A stretch of 64,000 nucleotides of DNA from Syntrophaceae bacterium (GTDB lineage: Bacteria; Desulfobacterota; Syntrophia; Syntrophales; UBA5619). A program made the translations under genes and the position numbers. Of this stretch, positions 16,354 through 35,788 are shown one piece after another. Under the pieces are notes generated by a model. It worked only from the letters and a program-made list of their open reading frames with translations. It was not told where the DNA came from and ran no database searches. Numbering within the stretch: the stretch's first letter is position 1; every line of letters starts with the position of its first letter. Location: NCBI GenBank assembly GCA_003141195.1, contig PLLC01000079.1, positions 13,475 to 77,474 of the forward strand, in the 5' to 3' direction.

Positions 16354-16511
16354 AAGATTCCCTCCTTGATGGTTGAATTAAAACCTGGTTTGGTATAGTG
16401 CTGCCGGAATGGACCTCGGCCAAAAACCGGCCGGGGGAACCTATACCATATTCGCCCTTGGCTGACAATGACTTCCTGCTAAGAAGGATCATTTTCCCAG
16501 AACGGAACGCC

Positions 16512-17039
16512 ATGCATATCATCGTGGACGGCTACAACCTGATCCGGCAATCCGACACCTTCCGGCATTCCGAGAGGAAAAGCCTGGAGGAGGGGCGCAA
16601 CGCCCTCATCCGGAGTCTTGCCGGCTACCGGAAACTTCGGGGGCACCGGATCACCGTCGTCTTCGACGGCTGGGTAGGGGGTTCGCCGGCGGAGGAACGG
16701 GACAGCGCCGGGGGGATGGAGATCATCTATTCCCGCCTGGGGGAGAAGGCCGACGAGGTGATCAAGCGACTGCTTGCGAAGGGTGATGAGGAGATCATGG
16801 TCGTCACCTCCGACCGTGAGATCGCCACGTTCGCCGTCCGCCGCGGGAAGACCGCCATCGCCTCCCCCGCGTTCGATGAACTGCTCGAACGGAGCGCCGC
16901 GGGATCTTCCGCTGAGGACACCCCCGGCGAGGGGAATCCGGATGACGACGACGACCGGACCGGCATGAAAAGAAAAGGCCCCTCCCGGCGGCTTTCCAAA
17001 CAGAAACGGGCGGCCTTGGCCCGGTTTAAGAAACTTTGA
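16512..17039 (+). CDS. NYN domain (YacP-like) RNA-binding/nuclease protein
   Basis: MHIIVDGYNLIRQSD, VVFDGW, VVTSDREIA. Confidence 0.85.
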   Translation: MHIIVDGYNLIRQSDTFRHSERKSLEEGRNALIRSLAGYRKLRGHRITVVFDGWVGGSPAEERDSAGGMEIIYSRLGEKADEVIKRLLAKGDEEIMVVTSDREIATFAVRRGKTAIASPAFDELLERSAAGSSAEDTPGEGNPDDDDDRTGMKRKGPSRRLSKQKRAALARFKKL

Positions 17040-17583
17040 CGGCTCCGCAGACGGCGAGCAGGAAGCGCTCCAGAAGGAGGCGGGGCTCCTGTCCCGTGGA
17101 CTTGAGCGCCAGATCGATCCGGACCAGCATCTCCAGAGAACCGGCCAGCTCGGAGCGGGTGAACCGGCCCGCGTTCTTCAGGGACTGATAGACGACGTAA
17201 GGGTGCTGCGAGACGAGATCGACCTGCTCCTCCCTCTCGCCCTCCCGGATCCACGCGATGAGGGGCGCGAGGATGGTTTTCGACGGAAAAAAGCGGGTCT
17301 CCCGGACAACGACCACCTTGCGTCCGGGGAGGAGGGGCGGTGTGATGAGGGATTCGCAGAGGGAGCCGACATCCTCGTGCTCGCCGTCGGTCACGAAGAG
17401 ATTGAGTTCACGGTCCCGGGCGTCGGGGATCAGCGCCGCCGTGATCTTGTCGAGGGCGTCCCGGAGGCGGAACTCCTCTTCCCCATAGAGGAGATAGCAG
17501 GGAACGGCCTTCCCCCGCTTCAGCTCGGCAAGGACCGCCTCCAGGGAGGCGCCCCGCCCGGTATCGTCGTCGTGAAGAGCCAT
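17026..17583 (-). pseudogene. holA: Internally deleted, in-frame second copy of DNA polymerase III delta subunit
   Basis: 185 aa = N-terminal ~118 plus C-terminal ~65 residues of the full holA at 22281..23675; ~279 codons missing. Confidence 0.8.
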
Positions 17584-17596
17584 AGGATCCGTGAAT

Positions 17597-17619
17597 TACC
17601 CCGCCCTGTGGACGGGGTA
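17597..17619. terminator. Hairpin TACCCCG...CGGGGTA at left edge of insert
   Basis: Perfect 7-bp stem; no strong T tract. Confidence 0.35.
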
Positions 17620-17823
17620 TTCTGCGGGAGAATTTCATAAAAAATTAAAAATATCTGCTTGCTTTTTGAAATTTTCGAGAGTATATTTTTTTAAAAGTTA
17701 TGAAATCAAGTGTCTACGCTGTCATCTGATCAATAAAGGAGGTGGTGGGAGGAAATTATCAGAAAAGGGATTTGAAGAGACTTTGCAGAAATTAAGAAAA
17801 CCTCACACACAAAGGAGATTGCC

Positions 17824-18060
17824 ATGAGCAACAAAATTAAAGGGATGTTTTTGCTATTTATTATTATCGGTTTAAGCGGATGTGCGGGTGTCCAATGGAA
17901 GGATACAAACGGTGCACTTGCTTCTGACTCGGTCGTAGTTGCATGTGGAAAACAGTGCGGCAGTGGTGGTACCGAGGGGCCATTAAATCAATTTAATGTT
18001 CCTCTTTTTGGCACTTGTCGTACCGCATGTATGAAATCGAAGGGGTATTCCCAACTGTAA
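17824..18060 (+). CDS. Small putative lipoprotein
   Basis: Lipobox LSGC; RBS AAAGGAG; terminator downstream. Confidence 0.6.
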   Translation: MSNKIKGMFLLFIIIGLSGCAGVQWKDTNGALASDSVVVACGKQCGSGGTEGPLNQFNVPLFGTCRTACMKSKGYSQL

Positions 18061-18093
18061 GTAAGTTTTTAAAAATTTAATAAGAGCTTCTTG

Positions 18094-18127
18094 AAAGCCG
18101 CAACCCGAAAGGGTATGCGGCTTTTTT
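18094..18127 (+). terminator. Rho-independent terminator
   Basis: AAAGCCGCAACCC-GAAA-GGGTATGCGGCTTTTTT. Confidence 0.9.
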
Positions 18128-18245
18128 ATTGAACAAAAGGAGGAAAAATAAACTGATAAGAATTTGCTTTTGCTTAAGTTGAGGATACGGAAAGGCATCC
18201 TGTATGTCAAGGAAATTGTATCACAACAGGTGAATATTTAAGCCC

Positions 18246-18369
18246 TAATATTGATGTTCTCGTCAAAAGTCAGAATTCGCCATTTTTCGGTTTGTAAGTA
18301 CCTGAATTAGGTGACTGCAAATTTTCAAAAAGGTCCGTTTGGCGACTTTTAACGAGGTCATCAATATTA
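18246..18369. mobile_element. MITE-like element with 26-bp TIRs
   Basis: TAATATTGATGTTCTCGTCAAAAGTC (18246-18271) and GACTTTTAACGAGGTCATCAATATTA (18344-18369). Confidence 0.65.
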
Positions 18370-18477
18370 TTGACATTATCCGCGGTTTATGATGGGATTT
18401 CTATGGAAGACGGGAGAAAAAACGAGATATCTCTTAATATTGTCATGCGCACAGACCGTGAGAAAGGAGACCTACAA

Positions 18478-21400
18478 ATGTACTCATGGATCAGGATTCT
18501 GCTTTTGGCCTTCATTTCAATGATTATCTGTATTCCAGGTATTTCAACCGCTGCAAAGCCGGTCCAGCGGCCCGATGTAACGCGGGAGGCGGAGATCATC
18601 GCAGTCCAGGGAGACGGGTGGGTCAATTTCATGAAAGGGCAGGCATGGTTTGAAGCGGTACGTCAGCAGGCCCTGACATCAGGGGATCTCATAAAAACGG
18701 GCAATTACGGAAAGATGTCGGTCCTTTTTGCGGATGATACCAGATAAAGATCCATCATAGAACTACCCTTGCTATAAAAGAGGTCCGGAAGGCCCCGGAC
18801 AGGAAGAGGACCGTCCTCGGGTTTGAGTCAGGCGAGATATGGAGCAGGGCCAAATCAGTTTCCGAAGAGCTAAGGATAGAGACTCCGTCCGCCACTGCCG
18901 CGATTCGCGGTACCGACTGGGATATAGCGGTGGATGAAAAGGGGGCAGCATATCTAACGGTGCTGAGAGGAAGCATCGAGTTTTACAACGATTACGGAAG
19001 GGTCATCGTAAGCTCGGGCGAGCAGGCTATCGCCACAATCGGCAAGCCTCCCCTGAAGACTGTGCTCGTGAGTCCGAAAGACAGGGTGCAGTGGGTTATT
19101 TCCTATCCGATGGATATCCCCGGATTGCTCCCCTTTTATTCCCACCGGAGAGGTGAAGCGCTCAAGGCCCTGCCCTCGGTTAGAGAGAAAGCCTCGAAAG
19201 ACCCTGCCGATCTTCGGACGAAACTTTTTCTTGCGGGTCTACTCTTTGATCTGAAGGACAGATGGGAGAGTCTCAGGCTATTTGACGAAATTCTCGTCTC
19301 AGATCCTGTGAATTGTAAAGCCCTGACCTTCAGGGGTCTCCTTGCGTTGGACAAAGGCGAGACAGAGAAGGCTGCAGAGTATCTCGGCCGGGCCGTCGGA
19401 GAATGCAGGGAAGGGGAAATAAGAGACGTCCTCCTGGGCATGGCGGGAGTACACATCGGCCGGGGAGAGTTAGGTAAGGCCGAAGAGCTTATCAATAATG
19501 CGGCGGAAAAGAATGCCTCACCCGTTGCGGGAGTTGTGAGGGCTGTTTTCCAGGCATTCCTCGGCAACTTCGCGAGAGCGATAGAGATCTCGTCGGAATA
19601 TGAGGCCAGATATCCGGATGACGAGAGATTCCCCTTAATCCGCGCCGCGTTTTATCTCGTGACGGATGAAGGAGCGAAGGCGAGAGCTTTCATAGAAACT
19701 GCGCTTAAGCTAAATCCTGCCTCTTCCAATGCCTATTCAGAGCTTGGGGGATACTATTAAAGGAAGGGAGGCTGAAGAGGCATTCAGGAAGGCGATTGAC
19801 CTTGACCCAGGTAATGTCTCGGCGAGGAACGGGCTGGCCCTGCTGAAGATGGACCAGGGATATTTTACGCAGGCAGGAGAAGAACTCTCCCTTGCCCTGG
19901 AGGCGGACCCCGCGCGCCTCGATGGTATGGTCTAACAGAGGTATGCTTTATAACGTCACAGAGGCATTGGACAATGCAAAAAGGGATTACGAAAGATCGG
20001 TCGAGCTCGACCCTGCAAATTATGTGGCCTTGAACGGCCAGGGGCTCGCGGCCCTGAAAGAGGGAAAGACGGAGGAAGCGATCCGGTATTTCCTTAAATC
20101 GAGTGTTATCGAACCCCGGTTCGCTCAACCCCATACGTTCCTCTCCATCGCATACTACCAGCAGGACGCCATTTCTCGGGCACTGGACGAGATCGGCCTT
20201 GCGGAGACGCTTGACCCTAAGGACCCTTACAGCGCTCTGGCGCAGGGGTATGTCAGAAAGCCGTGGGAGATTGCATACTCGCTGTCGCTTCAGGCGCAGA
20301 ATGATGCCGGAGCAACCGAAAACGGTTTTTCGAGAGGGTATAGTCTGAATTATGGAATGGGAATAAAACCTGACTATGATAACGGCTTCAACGTGGGAAT
20401 TTCTGCGGGCCATAATCAGAGCGGTCAGCCGGGTTCGAAAACAAATCCTGATCCGGACGACCGGTTGAAAACCTCCAACCTGGATATCGATCTCGGGTAT
20501 CACCACAGATTCGGACCGAAGAACGATCTCCTGGTGAGGGCCGCCTACGATAAAACCAAATTTGAACTGTTGAATGCTGATCCATTCGGGACAGGCCTGA
20601 CCAACAACCAGATGTCTTTTATCGCTGCAGGATTTGATACGCAGCTTACCAAGGACTTCTTCCAGAAAGGCGTATACGACCTTACCGCAATATTTGGGGG
20701 TCCTGCGATATCTCTTGCCACCGACTCAACAGGAACGTTTGAGAGCAGGGGAATACCCCGCTTGTCCTCAGCCTTTCCTGCGATTGTCGATCTCGATCTG
20801 AGGCATTCGGACAAAACGATGAATGAAACTCTTCTCTTTCAGTCGAGGCATCTGCTTGCCATCGGGGAAGACCAAGAGTTTACCTACGGGATCGAGTATG
20901 TCCCTTTTCGTTCAAAGAGAACTTTAGTCCTTAACAGGATAAGCGAGGCAGGTACCCTGGACTTCTATGAGGAATTTATTAAGAACAGGGCAGGAATCTT
21001 ATACGAGTTTCCGTTGCTGACATCTGAGGTGGGAACGGATGAGTTCAACACAAAGGGCAGGTTTGTGACCGCCTACCTTTCGGACCGGTGGAAATTGTCA
21101 AAAGTGTGGCTTGTCGAGGGGGGAGTTTTTTTCGAGTCCTTCCACGACGATAACAACCAGGCGGACCGGCTCTATCCGCGGCTGGGGACTGCGGTGAAGG
21201 TTTTTGAAAATCATACACTCCGGGTTGCCTTTCAGAGTATGGTCGATAAGGTCTCCAGCGGGACCCTGGCGCCTGTAGGCGCTGCAGGACTTGTTGTTGA
21301 CGACAGCCTTGCCCTGCAGGGTTCGCGTCTTACCGATTATCAGGCGAGGGTCGAATCGAGATGGTCCGGCAGGTTGTTTACGGCGATAGGGATCGAGAAA

Positions 21401-21844
21401 GTCAATTCCAGCGACCCGGAGCCGGGAGAGGGGTTTCCGAAAAGAGAACTCTCGACGACAAGTCTCATGGCCTCTGTGAATGCGCTTCTGGGAAAACAGA
21501 CCGGTCTCTTCCTGCGCTATCGGTACAACGAAAGCAAGGAAACAGGAAATGCCTTCGAGGGACTCACGGCCCCGGGCGTGCCAAGGCACTTGCTCAACGG
21601 CGGGCTGGTATGGGTCTCGCCTGCGTATGTGAAAGTCCTTCTTTCCTCCACCTATGCCGGTCCTCAATTTGCGGACTACTCGAACACGACTAAATTATCC
21701 GGCTATTGGACAACGAACCTCCTGGCAATGTGGGAACCCTTTAAAAAACACGTACTGCTGTCACTCTCTCTCAATAATATATTCAAGGCGAGTGACCCGG
21801 CGCCTGCCAGATCTGCATTTCTCACCCTGGAATATCGGCTTTAA
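18478..21844 (+). pseudogene. FecR domain - TPR - TonB-receptor-like outer-membrane barrel protein, three frameshifts
   Basis: FecR part in 18478..18747 and 18755..19760, TPR in the frames of ORFs 19729..19935 and 19892.., barrel ending SLNNIFKASDPAPARSAFLTLEYRL; frame changes near 18742, 19752 and 19925. Confidence 0.75.
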
Positions 21845-21849
21845 GCAGT

Positions 21850-22160
21850 ATGAGTTCCCCGAATTCCACCACCCGCTTCTGGTGACAGGAGGGACAAAAA
21901 TGACGGCGCTTGCAGGAAAAGGCAAGAAGATACTCGTGGTTGCAGTCTTTACATTTCACCCGGGCAAAGCCATTGTGCAGATCGCCGCAATCAAGATAAC
22001 GGTAAATGACCTTCTGGAGATAGGGACGGAAGAATCCGTAGGTCCGCTCAAACCGTTTCTCATAGACTTGGAAAAAGGTTTCCAGATGATCTTCAACACA
22101 GCGATAATAATCGGTAGCCTGTGGATTGCGGGGCTTATAAACGACGACCGGGGCGGCCAT
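21850..22160 (-). pseudogene. Truncated IS91-family transposase (N-terminal zinc-binding region)
   Basis: CVEDHLETFFQVYEKRFERTYGFFRPYLQKVIYRYLDCGDLHNGFARVKCKDCNHEYLLAFSCKRRHFCPSCHQKR; catalytic part absent. Confidence 0.8.
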
Positions 22161-22280
22161 GATTCCTCACCTCCGAGGGAAACAGGCCGTCTATTTTAGA
22201 ACGTACGTTCTATTTGTCAAGGTGAATATTCAAACAGAAGTCGACAACCGAAATAGCAACATCCATTGCGCAAAGACTTA

Positions 22281-23675
22281 TCATGTGTTCACTTTGCAGA
22301 CGGCTAGCAGGAAGCGCTCCAGAAGGAGGCGGGGCTCCTGTCCCGTGGACTTGAGCGCCAGATCGATCCGGACCAGCATCTCCAGAGAACCGGCCAGCTC
22401 GGAGCGGGTGAACCGGCCCGCGTTCTTCAGGGCCTGATAGACGACGTACGGGTGCTGCGAGACGAGATCGACCTGCTCCTCCCCCTCGCCGGTCCCCTGC
22501 TTGAGGGAGGGATAAACCGCCTTCTGAAAACGGCCGTAGTCCATGTTCGCGCTGAAGGCCTTCAGGCGCCCGGAGGCGAGCAGGAGTTTCGCATGGAGGA
22601 GGAAACGGATCTCCCGCGTAATCATGGCCATGATCATCAGGGGGGGGCTTCCCTGGTCGAGAAGGTCTTTCAGCGCCCGGAGGGCGGCCGTCAGGTTTCT
22701 TGCGGTGAGCGCCCCCGTCAGATCGAAAACGGTCTCCTCTTTCGTCCGGCCGATGACGGCCTCCACATCCGCCGCCTCGATGACCGCCTTCTCCCCCGCA
22801 TAGGTGATCAACTTCTCGATCGCCCCGCGCGACTCCCGAAGGCTGAAGCCGGTCTTCTGCCCTAGGGCAGCCCAGGCGCCGGAGGAGAGCCGTTTTCCCC
22901 GGCCCTCCAGGAGCCCGGCGGCCATCTCCATCAAGACCTGCTGCTGCCTCGCCTCCCCCTTGATCTTTGCGAAGGTCAGGATATGCCCCACGGATGAAAC
23001 GGCCTTGAAGAGCCTTTTCCGCCGGTCCACCTTCTCGGCCGTCAGGATGAGGTGATTCCCCTCCGGCATCCCCCCGGCCAGGACCCGTTCCAGGCGGTCG
23101 GTCTCCTCCTCCGTCTTTTCCTGGACCAGAACGGCGCCGCGGCTCACACAGAGTTCCACGGCCCTGGGAAGCCAGGTCTCCCGGCCCTCGCCGCCATCAT
23201 CGGGAACGATTCTCCGCCAGGCGTCGTCATCGATCTTCCGCCAGCCGCCGTCCCTAAGGTCGTCTAACTGCATTCCCGTCAGCGTCAGGAACTGCATGAA
23301 ATCCGCCGCCGCCCGGGCGGGGTCCGGTTCAAGCCGCTCCCGGATCCGCGCGATGAGAGGCGTGAGGGTTTTCGACTGAAAAAGGCAGGTCTCCCGGACG
23401 ACGACCACCTTGCGTCCGGGGAGGAGGGGCGGCGTGATGAGGGATTCGCAGAGGGAGCTGACATCCTCGTGCTCGCCGTCCGTCACGAAGAGATTGAGTT
23501 CGCGGTCCCGGGCGTCGGGGATCAGCGCCGCCGTGATCTTGTCGAGGGTGTCCCGGAGGCGGAACTCCTCTTCCCCATAGAGGAGATAGCAGGGAACGGC
23601 CTTCCCCCGCTTCAGCTCGGCAAGGACCGCCTCCAGGGAGGCGCCCCGACTGGTATCGTCGTCGTGAAGAGCCAT
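22281..23675 (-). CDS. holA: DNA polymerase III subunit delta, full length
   Basis: 464 aa; VPCYLLYGEEEFRLRDTLDKI, clamp-loader delta layout. Confidence 0.85.
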   Translation of the reverse strand: MALHDDDTSRGASLEAVLAELKRGKAVPCYLLYGEEEFRLRDTLDKITAALIPDARDRELNLFVTDGEHEDVSSLCESLITPPLLPGRKVVVVRETCLFQSKTLTPLIARIRERLEPDPARAAADFMQFLTLTGMQLDDLRDGGWRKIDDDAWRRIVPDDGGEGRETWLPRAVELCVSRGAVLVQEKTEEETDRLERVLAGGMPEGNHLILTAEKVDRRKRLFKAVSSVGHILTFAKIKGEARQQQVLMEMAAGLLEGRGKRLSSGAWAALGQKTGFSLRESRGAIEKLITYAGEKAVIEAADVEAVIGRTKEETVFDLTGALTARNLTAALRALKDLLDQGSPPLMIMAMITREIRFLLHAKLLLASGRLKAFSANMDYGRFQKAVYPSLKQGTGEGEEQVDLVSQHPYVVYQALKNAGRFTRSELAGSLEMLVRIDLALKSTGQEPRLLLERFLLAVCKVNT

Positions 23676-24752: not shown

Positions 24753-27700
24753 TTAGGATTGATATGATTTAATTTCGCTGTGATACTCCTGAATCGTCTT
24801 CACACGGCTTTCCCCCTTCAGCATCGCCTCGATCGCGTTGACCGCCGCCTGGGCGGCGGAGATGGTCGTGATCAGCGGCACGCTGTGGCGGACCGCCGTC
24901 GACCGGATGATGCCGGTATCCACCCGCGGTTTCTTGCCGCTGGAGGTGATAACGATCATGGCAACCTCCCGGTTCTTCATGAGATCGACGATGTTGGGCC
25001 TCCCCTCCGCCAGTTTGGGAAGGACCGTCACCGCCACGTCGTTGTTTTTGAGCACGGCGCCGGTCCCCGCCGTCGTCAGGATCTCAAAACCTAAATGTCC
25101 CAACTCTTTGGCGATGAAGATGATCTGCCTTTTGTCCTTGTTCGTCACGCTGACGAACACCTTCCCCGCTTTGGGCAGAAGCGTCCCCGCCGCGATCTGC
25201 GACTTGGCGAAGGCCCGGCCGAAGGCCGTATCGATCCCCATCACCTCCCCGGTCGATTTCATCTCCGGGCCGAGGATGGCGTCCACCCCCGCGAACCTGG
25301 CGAAGGGAAAGACCGACTCCTTGATCGCCACGTGGCGGACCTCGACCTGCTTTGTGAAGTTCAGCTCCTTGAGCGTCCGGCCGGCCATGACCTGCGTGGC
25401 GAGCTTCGCCAGGGGCACGCCGGTCGCCTTGCTCACGAAGGGGACCGTCCGCGACGCGCGGGGGTTCACCTCCAGGACATAGACCACATCGTTGCGGATC
25501 GCGTACTGGATGTTCATCAGCCCCTTGACCTGGAGCTCCCTCGCCAGGGCGTAGGTGTTCTCCGCGATGGTCTTCTGCAGCTTCGCATCCAGCGTGAAGG
25601 GAGGGATGACGGAGGCGCTGTCCCCCGAATGGATCCCCGCCTCCTCGATATGCTCCATGATCCCGCCGATGACCGTCGTCTCGCCGTCGGAGATGGCATC
25701 CACGTCGATCTCGATCGCATCCTCGAGGAACTTGTCGATCAGAATCGGGTGCTCCGGCGAGACCCGGATCGCCTTCTTCATGAACTCCTCCAGGGCCTCG
25801 TCGTCATAGACGATCTCCATCGCCCTCCCGCCCAGAACGTAGGAGGGCCGGACGATGACGGGATAGCTGATCCTTCCTGCCACCTTTCTCGCCTCCTCGA
25901 ACGAGCGGGCCGTCCCATTCTCCGGTTGGATGAGGTTCAGCTTCTTCAGGAGGGCCTGGAACCGCTTGCGGTCCTCCGCCCGGTCGATGCTGTCGGGCGT
26001 GGTGCCCCAGATGGGGACCCCCGCCTTCTCCAGGGGCACGGCGAGATTCAGCGGCGTCTGTCCGCCGAACTGGACGATCACCCCTTCGGGCTTCTCCCGC
26101 TCCACGATGTTGAGGAGATCCTCCCGGGTCAGGGGCTCGAAGTAGAGCTTGTCGGACGTGTCGTAGTCGGTGCTCACCGTCTCCGGGTTGGAGTTGACCA
26201 TGATGCTCTCGTAGCCCATCTCCTTGAGCGCGAGCGAGGCGTGGACGCAGCAGTAGTCGAACTCGATCCCCTGGCCGATCCGGTTGGGACCGCCGCCCAG
26301 GATCATCACCCTGGGCTTCGGGCTCCGGACGCTCTCCTCGACCTTTTCATAGGTGGAATAATAGTAGGGCTTCTCGGCGGTGAACTCGCCGGCGCAGGTG
26401 TCGACCAGTTTGAAGACCGGGGAAATCCCCCGTTTCTTTCTCATCCGCCGGATCAGGGCCTCGTCCGTGCCGAGGATCCGCGCCAGTTGAACGTCGGAGA
26501 AACCGTACTCCTTGGCCTGTTTCAGCAACCCCGCGGGGAAGGCGTCCATCCAGCCCTTCCGCTCCCCCTTTTCTCCGCGAAAGCGGCAGGCGGCGAGTTC
26601 CTGCTCCAGGTCGAAGAGCTCCTTCATGTTGGCCAGAAACCAGCGGTCGATCCGCGTGAGCTCGAAGATCTCGTCGATCGTCATCCCTTTCTGGAAGGCG
26701 TAGCGGATATAGAAGAAGCGCTCCGCGTTCGGGATGAGCAGCTTCTCCCGGATCTTCTCCCGTTCGGGAAGGGGGTTCACATCCTTCCCGTCGGCGCCGA
26801 ACCCGAAGCGCCCCGTCTCCAGGGAGCGGAGCCCCTTCTGGAACGCCTCCTTGAAGGTCCGTCCGATCGACATCGCCTCGCCCACGGCCTTCATCGAGGT
26901 GTTGAGCGTCGGGTCGGCCGTCGGAAACTTCTCGAAGGTGAAGCGGGCCACCTTGAAAACGCAGTAGTCGATCGTCGGTTCGTAGAGGGCCGAGGTCTTT
27001 CCGGTGATATCATTTTTCACCTCGTCGAGGGTGAATCCCACGGCCAGCTTCGTCGCCACGCGGGCGATGGGGAAACCGGTCGCCTTGGAGGCGAGGGCCG
27101 AACTCCGCGAGAGGCGCGGGTTGACCTCGATGATGACCACCTCGCCATTGTCCGGGTTCACGGCGAACTGGATGTTCACCCCGCCCCCGGTCACGTCGAT
27201 CTTCCGGATGACCTTCCGGCAGAGGGCCGTCAAATGGCTGTATTCCCGGGCCGTCAGGGTCTGGGCCGGCGCTACGACGGCGCTGTCCCCCGTGTGGACC
27301 CCCATTGCATCGACGTTCTCCATCGAGGTGATGATGATCACGTTGTCCGCGCAGTCCCGCATCACCTCGAACTCGATCTCCTTCCAGCCGAGGACGGACC
27401 GCTCGACAAGGACCTGGCCGACCGGGCTGTACTCGATGGCCTTTCCCAGGGATTCCCGGAGTTCTTCCTTGTTGTAGGCGATGGCGCCGCCCGTCCCGCC
27501 GAGGGTGAAGGCCGGCCGGAGGATCAGGGGGAACCCGATGGAAAGGCCGATGGCCATCCCCTCCTCGACGGTGATGGCGATCCCGCTCTCGGGAACGCCG
27601 ATCCCGATCTCCTGCATGGCCGTCTTGAAGAGTCCCCGGTCCTCCGCACGGGAGATCGCCTCCGCAGAGGCGCCCAGGACCTCCACCCCGTACTTTTCAA

Positions 27701-28022
27701 AAACACCGGCTCTGGCGAGGAAGACCGCCGTGTTGAGACCGGTCTGGCCGCCCAGGGTGGGCAGGATGGCGTCCGGCCGCTCCCGGGCGATGATCTTCTC
27801 CACGAACTCCGGCGTGATCGGCTCGATATAGGTTCGGTCCGCCATGCCCGGATCGGTCATGATCGTCGCCGGGTTCGAGTTGATGAGGATGACGAAGTAC
27901 CCTTCTTCCTTGAGGGCCTTGCACGCCTGGGATCCGGAATAGTCGAACTCGCAGGCCTGGCCGATGATGATCGGACCCGAACCCACAATCAGTATCTTCT
28001 TCAAATCTTCTCGCTTCGGCAT
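24753..28022 (-). CDS. carB: Carbamoyl-phosphate synthase large subunit
   Basis: 1089 aa; [23 protein letters not shown], duplicated ATP-grasp halves. Confidence 0.98.
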
Positions 28023-28072: not shown

Positions 28073-29212
28073 CTACGCCCCGGCCTTCCGGCGCCGTTCC
28101 ATCCGGCGGATGAACTCCGCAAACGGCGCGCCCGGCGCTCCGTCATCCGTAAACAGGGGGATGAACTGCACCCCGGTCGCCTCCAGCCCCTCCGCCGCGA
28201 TCCCTTCGACACTGCCGTCGTTCAGGTTCACGTGCGAAACGCGAAAATCCGTCCCCGCAAGCGATCCGGCATCGATCACGAGGCGGTGGTTCTGGCTCGT
28301 GATCGCATCCCGGCCGGTTGCCGCCTCCCGGACCGGATAGTTGACGCCGTGGTGACCGGTTTTCAGCGCCCCGATCCGGCCGCCACCCGCCAGGGCGAGA
28401 AGCTGGCAGCCCAGCGCCACACCGATCATGGGCAACTTCCCGAGGGCCTTCCGGATCTGCGCGGCCGTCTCCGCCAGATCCCGCGGATCCCCTGGACCAT
28501 TGGAGATCAGGACACCTTCCGGTCTCAGGGCGCCGATCTCCTCCCAGGAGACCATGAAGGGCGCGCGGACCACCTGACAGCCGCCCGCTTCGAGCTGCGC
28601 GATGCAGCTCCGCCGGATGCCAAGATCCCAGACGACGACGCGATACCGCCCATCCTCCGTGAATCCAGAAACGGGGACATGATGCCGCATCGTGTCCCCG
28701 CTGACCGCGCCGCGGATCAGTTCCGGCGCCAAAGGGACTTTGCTTGCGCCCTTCAGGGTATAGGCCCGGACCTTACTTAGGAGTTCCGCGACCGGCAACG
28801 CGGCCGGGGCAATCACACCCCGCATTTCGCCGCGATCCCGCAGCCGGAGGGCAAGGGTCCGCGTATCCACCCCGTCCATCCCCACGACGCCCCGCTCCTT
28901 CATCCAATCACTTAGAGAACCTTCCGCGCGCCAGTTGCTGACGATCCGGCTCCGCTCTCGGACCAGGAGTGCCGATGCCTGTGCGCGGTCGGACTCCCCG
29001 TCCTCCGCGTTGACGCCGTAATTTCCGATCAGGGGATAGGTCATGTTCACCAGCATCCCGCGATTGTCGGGATCGGTCAACGTTTCCTGATACCCGACGA
29101 CGCCGTAATCGTTGTGGACCCAGCCGCAGACCTCCGCTTCCGCCCCGAACGACTCCCCTGAAAAAGAACTCCCATCCTCCAGTACCAGCATCATTTTCAT
29201 AAGCCGACCCAT
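28073..29212 (-). CDS. carA: Carbamoyl-phosphate synthase small subunit
   Basis: LVLEDGSSFSGESFG; class I glutamine amidotransferase region GVALGCQLLALAGGG (nucleophile Cys within GxC). Confidence 0.96.
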   Translation of the reverse strand: MGRLMKMMLVLEDGSSFSGESFGAEAEVCGWVHNDYGVVGYQETLTDPDNRGMLVNMTYPLIGNYGVNAEDGESDRAQASALLVRERSRIVSNWRAEGSLSDWMKERGVVGMDGVDTRTLALRLRDRGEMRGVIAPAALPVAELLSKVRAYTLKGASKVPLAPELIRGAVSGDTMRHHVPVSGFTEDGRYRVVVWDLGIRRSCIAQLEAGGCQVVRAPFMVSWEEIGALRPEGVLISNGPGDPRDLAETAAQIRKALGKLPMIGVALGCQLLALAGGGRIGALKTGHHGVNYPVREAATGRDAITSQNHRLVIDAGSLAGTDFRVSHVNLNDGSVEGIAAEGLEATGVQFIPLFTDDGAPGAPFAEFIRRMERRRKAGA

Positions 29213-33623: not shown

Positions 33624-33684
33624 TTCGTTACGGATAGCTCCCTCCCCCGGACGGGGGAGGGAGAACCGTCTCTTCGAACTTATT

Positions 33685-33801
33685 ACTCCGGCAAGTAAAC
33701 ATGTATAAGATTGTCATGCCGGACTTGATCCGGCATCCAGTCCCGTTCTGGATTCCCGCTTTCGCGGGAATGACGACTTTGAAATATATTGTTGCCTGAG
33801 T
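33685..33801. repeat. Hairpin element with REP-like core
   Basis: Core 33713-33774 GTCATGCCGG..ATCCGGCATCCAG..CTGGATTCCCGC..GCGGGAATGAC; outer arms ACTCCGGCAA/TTGCCTGAGT. Confidence 0.7.
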
Positions 33802-34066
33802 AAAAATGCCCACATGTCATTCTCATCGCGTTGGAATGGCGATCGAGACCGCCGCAGGTTCTGTGCCCGTATGGGCGAGGGAGGGGTAAACAAAAATGCG
33901 CGCAGGGACCCCCGGCAGTCCGTCCGGCAGGTTCATCGCCCAGGCGGGAGAGGGGAAAAGAGCCGTCTGCAGAAATCTTCCGAAATCGGTCCGTCGGGTT
34001 CCCCGCCCGGATGGGCGGGGAACCCGACGGTAGCCGTTGAAATGATCGCCTCTTTGATTGTAACCG

Positions 34067-35788
34067 TTACGGGTTAGTTATAACCACGGCAGCGGTATAT
34101 ATATTTCCATCGATCGTGATGCTGGCTGTGACAACTCCCGTTGCTTTTGCTAAACCAGCACCTGTATAGATAACCACCGCGTTTCCGCTCCCGTCCGTTA
34201 TCGCCGTCGAACCAACCGGCACCGAACCAGCAGAACCAGAAGATGTAAATGTGACTGTCACGCCGCTGACCGCCGTTCCCAGATTGTTCAACACATTTGC
34301 CGTTACAACGCTGTTTGAAGTAGTAGTCGACAGAGTCGGGGGATCCGCCTTGACGGTAATCCTGAACGCCGACGTCGCCGAGCCGACCCTCGTGATCGCC
34401 ACGGCGCTCGCCGCCGTGCCGACGGCCGCCTGGACCGTATCCTGAACGGTCAGCGTCGGATTTGTGGTCCCCGGCTGATAGATCACGACCGCCTTGCCGC
34501 TGCTGTCCGTCGTCGCGGTCGCCGCGGACAGAGACGCGTTGCTGCTGTTGACCGGCAGCGTGAAGGCCACCGGTACGCCGCCGGCGGGTCCGGGTGTGGT
34601 TCCGCTGACGGTCACGGTGGCGGTGATGATGCTGACCTGTCCCGCCGTCACGGAAGTTTCCGATGGGACGATGGTCACCGCATAGTACGACGTCGTGGCC
34701 GACGTCCGGGTGAGGATGACCGCGGCGTTCGCGCCGTTGGTCAGGACGGCCTGGATCGTATCCTGGACCTCGGTGCCCGGCGACGTGGACCCCGCCTGAT
34801 AGATGGCCGTCGCGATGCCGCTGCCGCCGGCCGTAATCGTGATCGAAGCGACGCTGGTCCCGCTCGTGTTGATGAAACTCGCCCCGCTGTGGTTCACCGG
34901 GAGGGAGAAGGTTACGGCCGCGCCGGATTTATTGTCGCCGGCGACGGTCGCCGTGATGATGATCGTCCCCCCAGCGGGGACCGATGGGGTAGAGGGATTG
35001 GTGGCAAGCGTGACCGACAGATCCGTCGTTGGCGGCGGCGCTGTCCCGGCGCTGCGCGTGATGACCACCGCATTGCCGGAACCGTTCGCCAAGGCGCCCC
35101 GGACGGTGTCGTACACCGCCGTTAGCGGGGAGCTGCTCCCCGCCAGATAGATCGCAACGGCATTGCCGCTGGCGTCGGTGTTGACCGAAACGGACGAGAC
35201 GTAAACGCCGGCGGCATTGACGAAGCCGGCGCTGCTTTCGTTCACCGGAAGCGTGAACGTAACGGTTTCACCCTGCATAGGGTTGCTGTTCCCATCGGTT
35301 ACCGTGGCCGTGATGACGCTGGTCTGATCGGCGGCAACCGTCGTAGGCAAAGCCACCAGCGAAGAAATCCGCGCGCCAGCGATGCCGCCCGTTTTCGTAA
35401 TGGTAATGGATGCCGTCGCCCCGACATCGGTGGTGATGCGGATCACATCCTGGGAGAGGTTGTTGCCCGCCGTATAGATCGCCGTGGCGACACCGCCGCT
35501 GCCCGTCCTGTCACTCGCGGCCGCAAGGGTCCCGCCGTTGCGCGTCAACAGGGAAAAGGAGACCCTTTCCCCGATGACCGGCACTGTGGTCTTCTCACCG
35601 GTCTGATTGGTCACCGTGGCCGTCAGGGTGCAGGAGCCGCCGGCCTGGACCTCAGTCGCATCGGCCGTCAGGGTCACGGTCCCCGTCCCCATCGGATCGG
35701 CCGCGCTGCCGCCGCCGCCGCCGCAACTACAAACGCAGAGCGTCAAGATGCATAGGAGTAGTCCTGATAAACGAGAACACTTACGCAT
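34067..35788 (-). CDS. Lipoprotein with about five tandem bacterial Ig-like (Big_1/invasin type) domains
   Basis: Lipobox CVCSCGGGG; repeated 'VTAGQVSIITATVTV...VTFTLPVN...DSSGKAVVIYQPG' units. Confidence 0.82.
   Translation of the reverse strand: MRKCSRLSGLLLCILTLCVCSCGGGGGSAADPMGTGTVTLTADATEVQAGGSCTLTATVTNQTGEKTTVPVIGERVSFSLLTRNGGTLAAASDRTGSGGVATAIYTAGNNLSQDVIRITTDVGATASITITKTGGIAGARISSLVALPTTVAADQTSVITATVTDGNSNPMQGETVTFTLPVNESSAGFVNAAGVYVSSVSVNTDASGNAVAIYLAGSSSPLTAVYDTVRGALANGSGNAVVITRSAGTAPPPTTDLSVTLATNPSTPSVPAGGTIIITATVAGDNKSGAAVTFSLPVNHSGASFINTSGTSVASITITAGGSGIATAIYQAGSTSPGTEVQDTIQAVLTNGANAAVILTRTSATTSYYAVTIVPSETSVTAGQVSIITATVTVSGTTPGPAGGVPVAFTLPVNSSNASLSAATATTDSSGKAVVIYQPGTTNPTLTVQDTVQAAVGTAASAVAITRVGSATSAFRITVKADPPTLSTTTSNSVVTANVLNNLGTAVSGVTVTFTSSGSAGSVPVGSTAITDGSGNAVVIYTGAGLAKATGVVTASITIDGNIYTAAVVITNP

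Follow-up and report, generated by a model that had tools for sequence, protein, structure and literature searches.

The holA locus

The window analysed here, a stretch of 64,000 nucleotides, comes from an uncultured Syntrophales bacterium that is known from metagenome assembly alone; the genome is a draft of 108 contigs, with 3.5% contamination. It contains holA, a DNA-polymerase clamp-loader gene, twice, and one broken and one intact copy lie on either side of 4.7 kb of decaying foreign DNA. The two copies (termed left and right) and their neighbours are the following:

16398..17039, plus strand: NYN (YacP-like) gene (PF05991, E 1.7e-31), the native left neighbour of holA
17026..17583, minus strand: left holA, delta subunit lacking ~840 nt internally and in frame, 185 aa, probably a pseudogene
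22281..23675, minus strand: right holA, full-length delta subunit, 464 aa, the sole intact copy in the genome
23764..24465, minus strand: LOG-family gene (PF03641, E 2.3e-35), the native right neighbour of holA, with synteny in most relatives

Both outer flanks of the locus are native, namely the NYN junction at left holA and the LOG side at right holA. The 3′ end of NYN overlaps left holA by 14 nt and the junction is equally compact in close relatives; in the loci L008 and L009, NYN abuts or overlaps holA.

A preliminary description had reported two highly similar holA copies in direct orientation, and both parts of this statement were borne out. The two frames are present at the positions given above and each matches the Pfam DNA polymerase III delta families PF06144 and PF21694. 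Nucleotide alignment gave two shared blocks in direct orientation, one of 195 nt with 98% identity (17047-17241 vs 22296-22490) and one of 300 nt with 96% identity (17272-17571 vs 23364-23663), a similarity that is far beyond chance. The spacing between the copies is 5249 in the first block and 6092 in the second; hence, left holA lacks ~840 nt, in frame. No third copy was found in a search of the whole genome.

Right holA has both Pfam delta domains, is uninterrupted and retains conserved synteny, and it presumably supplies the delta subunit of the clamp loader. In left holA, the central (AAA+) region is incomplete, with ~280 codons gone; having neither this region nor the native upstream context, the copy is probably dead. 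Its predicted product would retain the N-terminal domain for the most part, together with the last portion of the C-terminal collar domain, the AAA+ core being absent. In the delta subunit of E. coli, it is the N-terminal domain that binds and opens the beta clamp. That the 185-aa protein is expressed and functions as a free mini-delta, modulating clamp loading or unloading, is nevertheless considered extremely improbable.

The longest exact match between the copies is 127 nt (17057-17183 = 22306-22432). The largest k commonly used by metaSPAdes is also 127, and thus the locus may be a mis-resolved assembly of a normal chromosome (NYN, full holA, LOG) and a second molecule, either a separate 5249-bp circle or one from another strain, bearing the truncated holA and the cargo; the assembly graph would allow this reading equally well. 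The fragmented and partly contaminated state of the draft is in keeping with such an error, as is the fact that the named relatives are all metagenome assemblies of uncultured Syntrophales or Deltaproteobacteria. However, every junction would still need to exist in the reads, and the bin shows no second, near-identical version of the flanking 33 kb, which speaks against gross strain mixing without being decisive. Searches at both contig ends revealed no overlap from which the assembler k could be read. On balance, an artefact is judged unlikely, at roughly one chance among four.

Content of the insert

The DNA between the copies has a GC content of 45-54%, compared with about 60-65% in the immediate flanks. 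Its features, from left to right, are:

17590..17643: REP-like palindrome, abutting the 5′ end of left holA and dispersed in the genome and the genus
17824..18060, plus strand: small predicted lipoprotein frame, 78 aa, no Pfam match
18151..18228: dispersed repeat fragment, with copies at 82-90% on other contigs of the genome
18246..18369: MITE-like repeat, dispersed, whose inverted ends of 26 nt are 88% complementary; other copies occur in the genome
18298..21844, plus strand: FecR-TPR-beta-barrel outer-membrane protein frame, a pseudogene, from stop-to-stop frames and Pfam
21855..22234, minus strand: 5′ fragment of an IS91-type element, comprising the promoter and the N-terminal zinc-binding part of the transposase (PF14319, E 2.7e-16)
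22235..22290: short stretch between the IS91-type 5′ end and the native tail of right holA, with no match elsewhere in the genome

Copies of the REP-like palindrome occur at 84-94% on several contigs of the same genome, and in G010 the match is 90% over 58 nt, ending at TTTCATAAAA. Short dispersed repeats of this kind (REP-like, MITE-like) form several families across the genome and the genus. The main gene of the insert matches FecR, TPR and, weakly, OMP_b-brl, and about three frameshifts (near 18747, 19760 and 19935) interrupt its frame. Within the genus, copies of the IS91-type element align with the stretch from about 21855 to 22221-22234. Of the transposase, the N-terminal zinc-binding part alone is left, short of the complete transposase with its catalytic tyrosine domain and of the pair of ends that mark an intact IS91-type element. 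No integrase, replication or mobilisation genes were seen in the 4.7 kb, and a comparison with Rfam gave no match.

Two specific routes of entry were considered and rejected. The tail of right holA ends at GTTC/GAAC, which fits the IS91 target rule, and one-ended transposition was therefore a candidate cause of this junction; it was dropped as ~60 nt separate the junction from the element's conserved 5′ end. Site-specific integration into holA was discarded in view of the missing integrase and the finding by ARAGORN of no tRNA in the window.

The preliminary description had suggested looking for the insert at other loci. No second copy was found in the genome itself. Within the genus the insert is absent, save for repeats and IS91 pieces; for its main gene, no close relative was found among 154 other genomes of the class or in scans of GTDB and IMG/VR contigs. 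The plasmid matches of this gene are remote barrel matches of about 25%. The junction patterns, when searched in IMG/VR, also gave no match.

The holA locus in related genomes

The holA survey covered 61 genomes (that of the window and 60 relatives), and the gene is present in 57 of them. Close relatives carry a single full holA in the order NYN-holA-LOG-rpsU and lack this insert, so that the undivided arrangement sought after the preliminary description does exist, with one holA in each case. No genome in an intermediate state was found.

Unrelated inserts were observed downstream of the holA 3′ end in G002, G004, G008 and G009, none of which has a second holA at the site. In G004 and G008, the gap between NYN and holA is ~2.4 kb; according to Pfam, the gap gene of G004 is an aldehyde ferredoxin oxidoreductase, and a frame of equal size (635 aa) is present in G008. 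In G002 and G009, holA is followed by other unrelated genes. The cargo beside the holA 3′ end was located in three relatives' loci (L044:3607-5514, L042:9466-12453 and L043:7817-10162), where it encodes an aldehyde ferredoxin oxidoreductase, a flavoprotein with an HpcH/HpaI aldolase, and a trypsin-like protein. The presence of unrelated cargo in several relatives indicates that the holA 3′ end is a recurrent insertion site. Cargo on this side of holA is thus common and repeatedly adjoins the gene without duplicating it; the duplication is the unusual part of the present locus. A literature search for a comparable known holA duplication returned nothing relevant.

Divergence of the two copies

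It had been stated earlier that the homology between the copies stops close to the gene. The stop positions are as described; the refinement to be made is that the two 3′ tails have different sequences. Immediately beyond the near-identical part, the 3′ tail of right holA starts with AAAGTGAAC, which is matched exactly in L008 and at 8/9 in L009. The 3′ tail of left holA consists of GGAGCC followed, up to the stop, by GTCAAAGTTTCT, the latter being homologous to GTCAGAGTTTCC of L008. Both tails thus resemble native tails of relatives and, as they differ from each other, left and right holA are not simple copies of one another. Judged by their sequences, they probably represent two alleles that stem from diverged strains, and not a recent copying of one into the other.

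Over the 173 shared codons, the copies differ at 17 sites. The nearest relative, G002, differs from left holA at 37 sites and from right holA at 41 sites. The 17 differences comprise 9 non-synonymous and 8 synonymous changes, numbers too small for relaxed selection to serve as a dating argument, which was abandoned.

These observations also bear on the possibility that holA was duplicated inside one genome, with cargo then inserted between the copies and a deletion arising within the left one. In the parts that they share, left and right holA are each the closest relative of the other, and the share of non-synonymous changes hints at relaxed selection, both of which speak for such a duplication. 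The tails, however, are much less alike than the neighbouring 195 nt (98%), and the tail of right holA matches native tails of relatives, a tail that copying of left holA would not yield. An origin within one genome is hence regarded as quite improbable.

Proposed origin of the locus

It is proposed that the locus is a recombination scar holding two divergent holA alleles, produced by one homologous exchange and one non-homologous join, a reading to which we give an even chance. The starting point would be a single ancestral holA between NYN and LOG. DNA of a related strain or sister species would then have entered through one homologous exchange, its other end being joined without homology. 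This may have occurred by homology-facilitated illegitimate recombination (HFIR) of a linear fragment, or by ligation of the ends to form a small circle that then underwent a single crossover, and the two routes fit equally well. Through the exchange, cargo acquired horizontally would have become trapped where NYN and holA converge, after which right holA would have stayed intact, while left holA would have lost ~280 codons in frame and decayed along with the cargo.

One homologous exchange with one non-homologous join would explain the association of left holA with NYN and of right holA with LOG, the presence of two alleles and the foreign interior. At the homologous end, the junctions of left holA with NYN and of right holA with LOG are native-like and the alleles differ, which would fit a join through homology but does not mark the point of exchange. 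Candidate sites for the illegitimate join, which in HFIR usually falls at a short microhomology, lie near 17643 and 22290. The low GC content and decay of the insert also count in favour of this origin, as does the fact that, except for repeats and IS91 pieces, the genus lacks it. The smaller distance between the copies than from either to G002, the unrelated inserts beside holA in relatives and the single occurrence of the flanks in the bin point the same way. On the other side, neither an intermediate state nor a donor was found, the genome is of draft grade, and about half of the differences between the copies are non-synonymous (9/17, a small number), which would also fit divergence within one genome under relaxed selection. 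Direct repeats at this identity should also allow loop-out, and joins with homology at one end only were found to be rare where measured (PMC3240628; PMC5361080).

The preliminary description had attributed the arrangement to Campbell-type integration, that is, single-crossover entry of a circular molecule carrying holA. Several findings agree with that claim: the direct repeats, the native outer flanks, the relatives with one holA and no insert, and the apparent joining of two alleles by recombination. The order and orientation fit a true circular element (plasmid or excised circle), with foreign inner flanks between the repeats, and in E. coli, incoming linear DNA has been documented to circularise and then undergo a single crossover (PMC3240628). 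The circle itself gained no specific support. The insert has no visible replication, mobilisation or integrase gene, it was not found elsewhere in the genome, and its main gene has only remote barrel matches on plasmids and nothing close in GTDB or IMG/VR. Furthermore, it would have to be specially explained why the homology of a circle ends just where one housekeeping gene does. Single-ended homologous recombination leaves the same arrangement; a circle is possible but not needed, and integration of a true circular element is considered improbable, more so than an assembly artefact and somewhat less so than duplication within one genome. Nothing at the locus demands a plasmid or a phage.

Comparison with known systems

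The proposed exchange resembles HFIR as known from E. coli, where one homologous anchor and one non-homologous join can place a second allele beside foreign DNA (PMC3240628). That process is known from laboratory transformation and conjugation, whereas here it is deduced from the sequence, with neither anchor nor join fixed. An HFIR-like mechanism has been proposed for the type VI orphan immunity-gene arrays of Vibrio cholerae, in which modules likewise enter beside a conserved anchor while the older copy stays (PMC5361080). The arrays, however, consist of repeated modules under selection, in contrast to the single housekeeping gene and decayed cargo seen here. With Campbell-type integration, the locus shares direct repeats of a homologous gene that bracket inserted DNA; it differs in that no circular element or its genes have been identified.

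In all likelihood the locus is an ordinary recombination scar and adds one more example to those known. Though small, it is a readable case in which allele-level recombination at a convergent junction would have led to partial duplication of an essential replication gene next to foreign cargo. Should reads reveal a loop-out circle, the locus would offer a natural case for studying merodiploid stability in uncultured bacteria; otherwise, it would represent ordinary genome turnover.

Other repeated sequences

Several further repeats were observed in the window and the genome. A region within carB (25420-27998) matches positions 1-2552 of contig C30 at 72-76%, a second carB-like gene lying at the start of that contig; this is possibly a paralogue or bin contamination. 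A stretch of 28-33 nt at 28669-28704 has exact repeats on several other contigs, and a repeat of ~125 nt at 33680-33808 recurs at 88-93% on several further contigs. Contig C68 has, close to its start (L103:15-138), a repeat of ~124 nt with counterparts of ~90% identity on several of the remaining contigs. Finally, a stretch of ~1.16 kb (33991-35150) has a copy on contig C11 at 84% identity.
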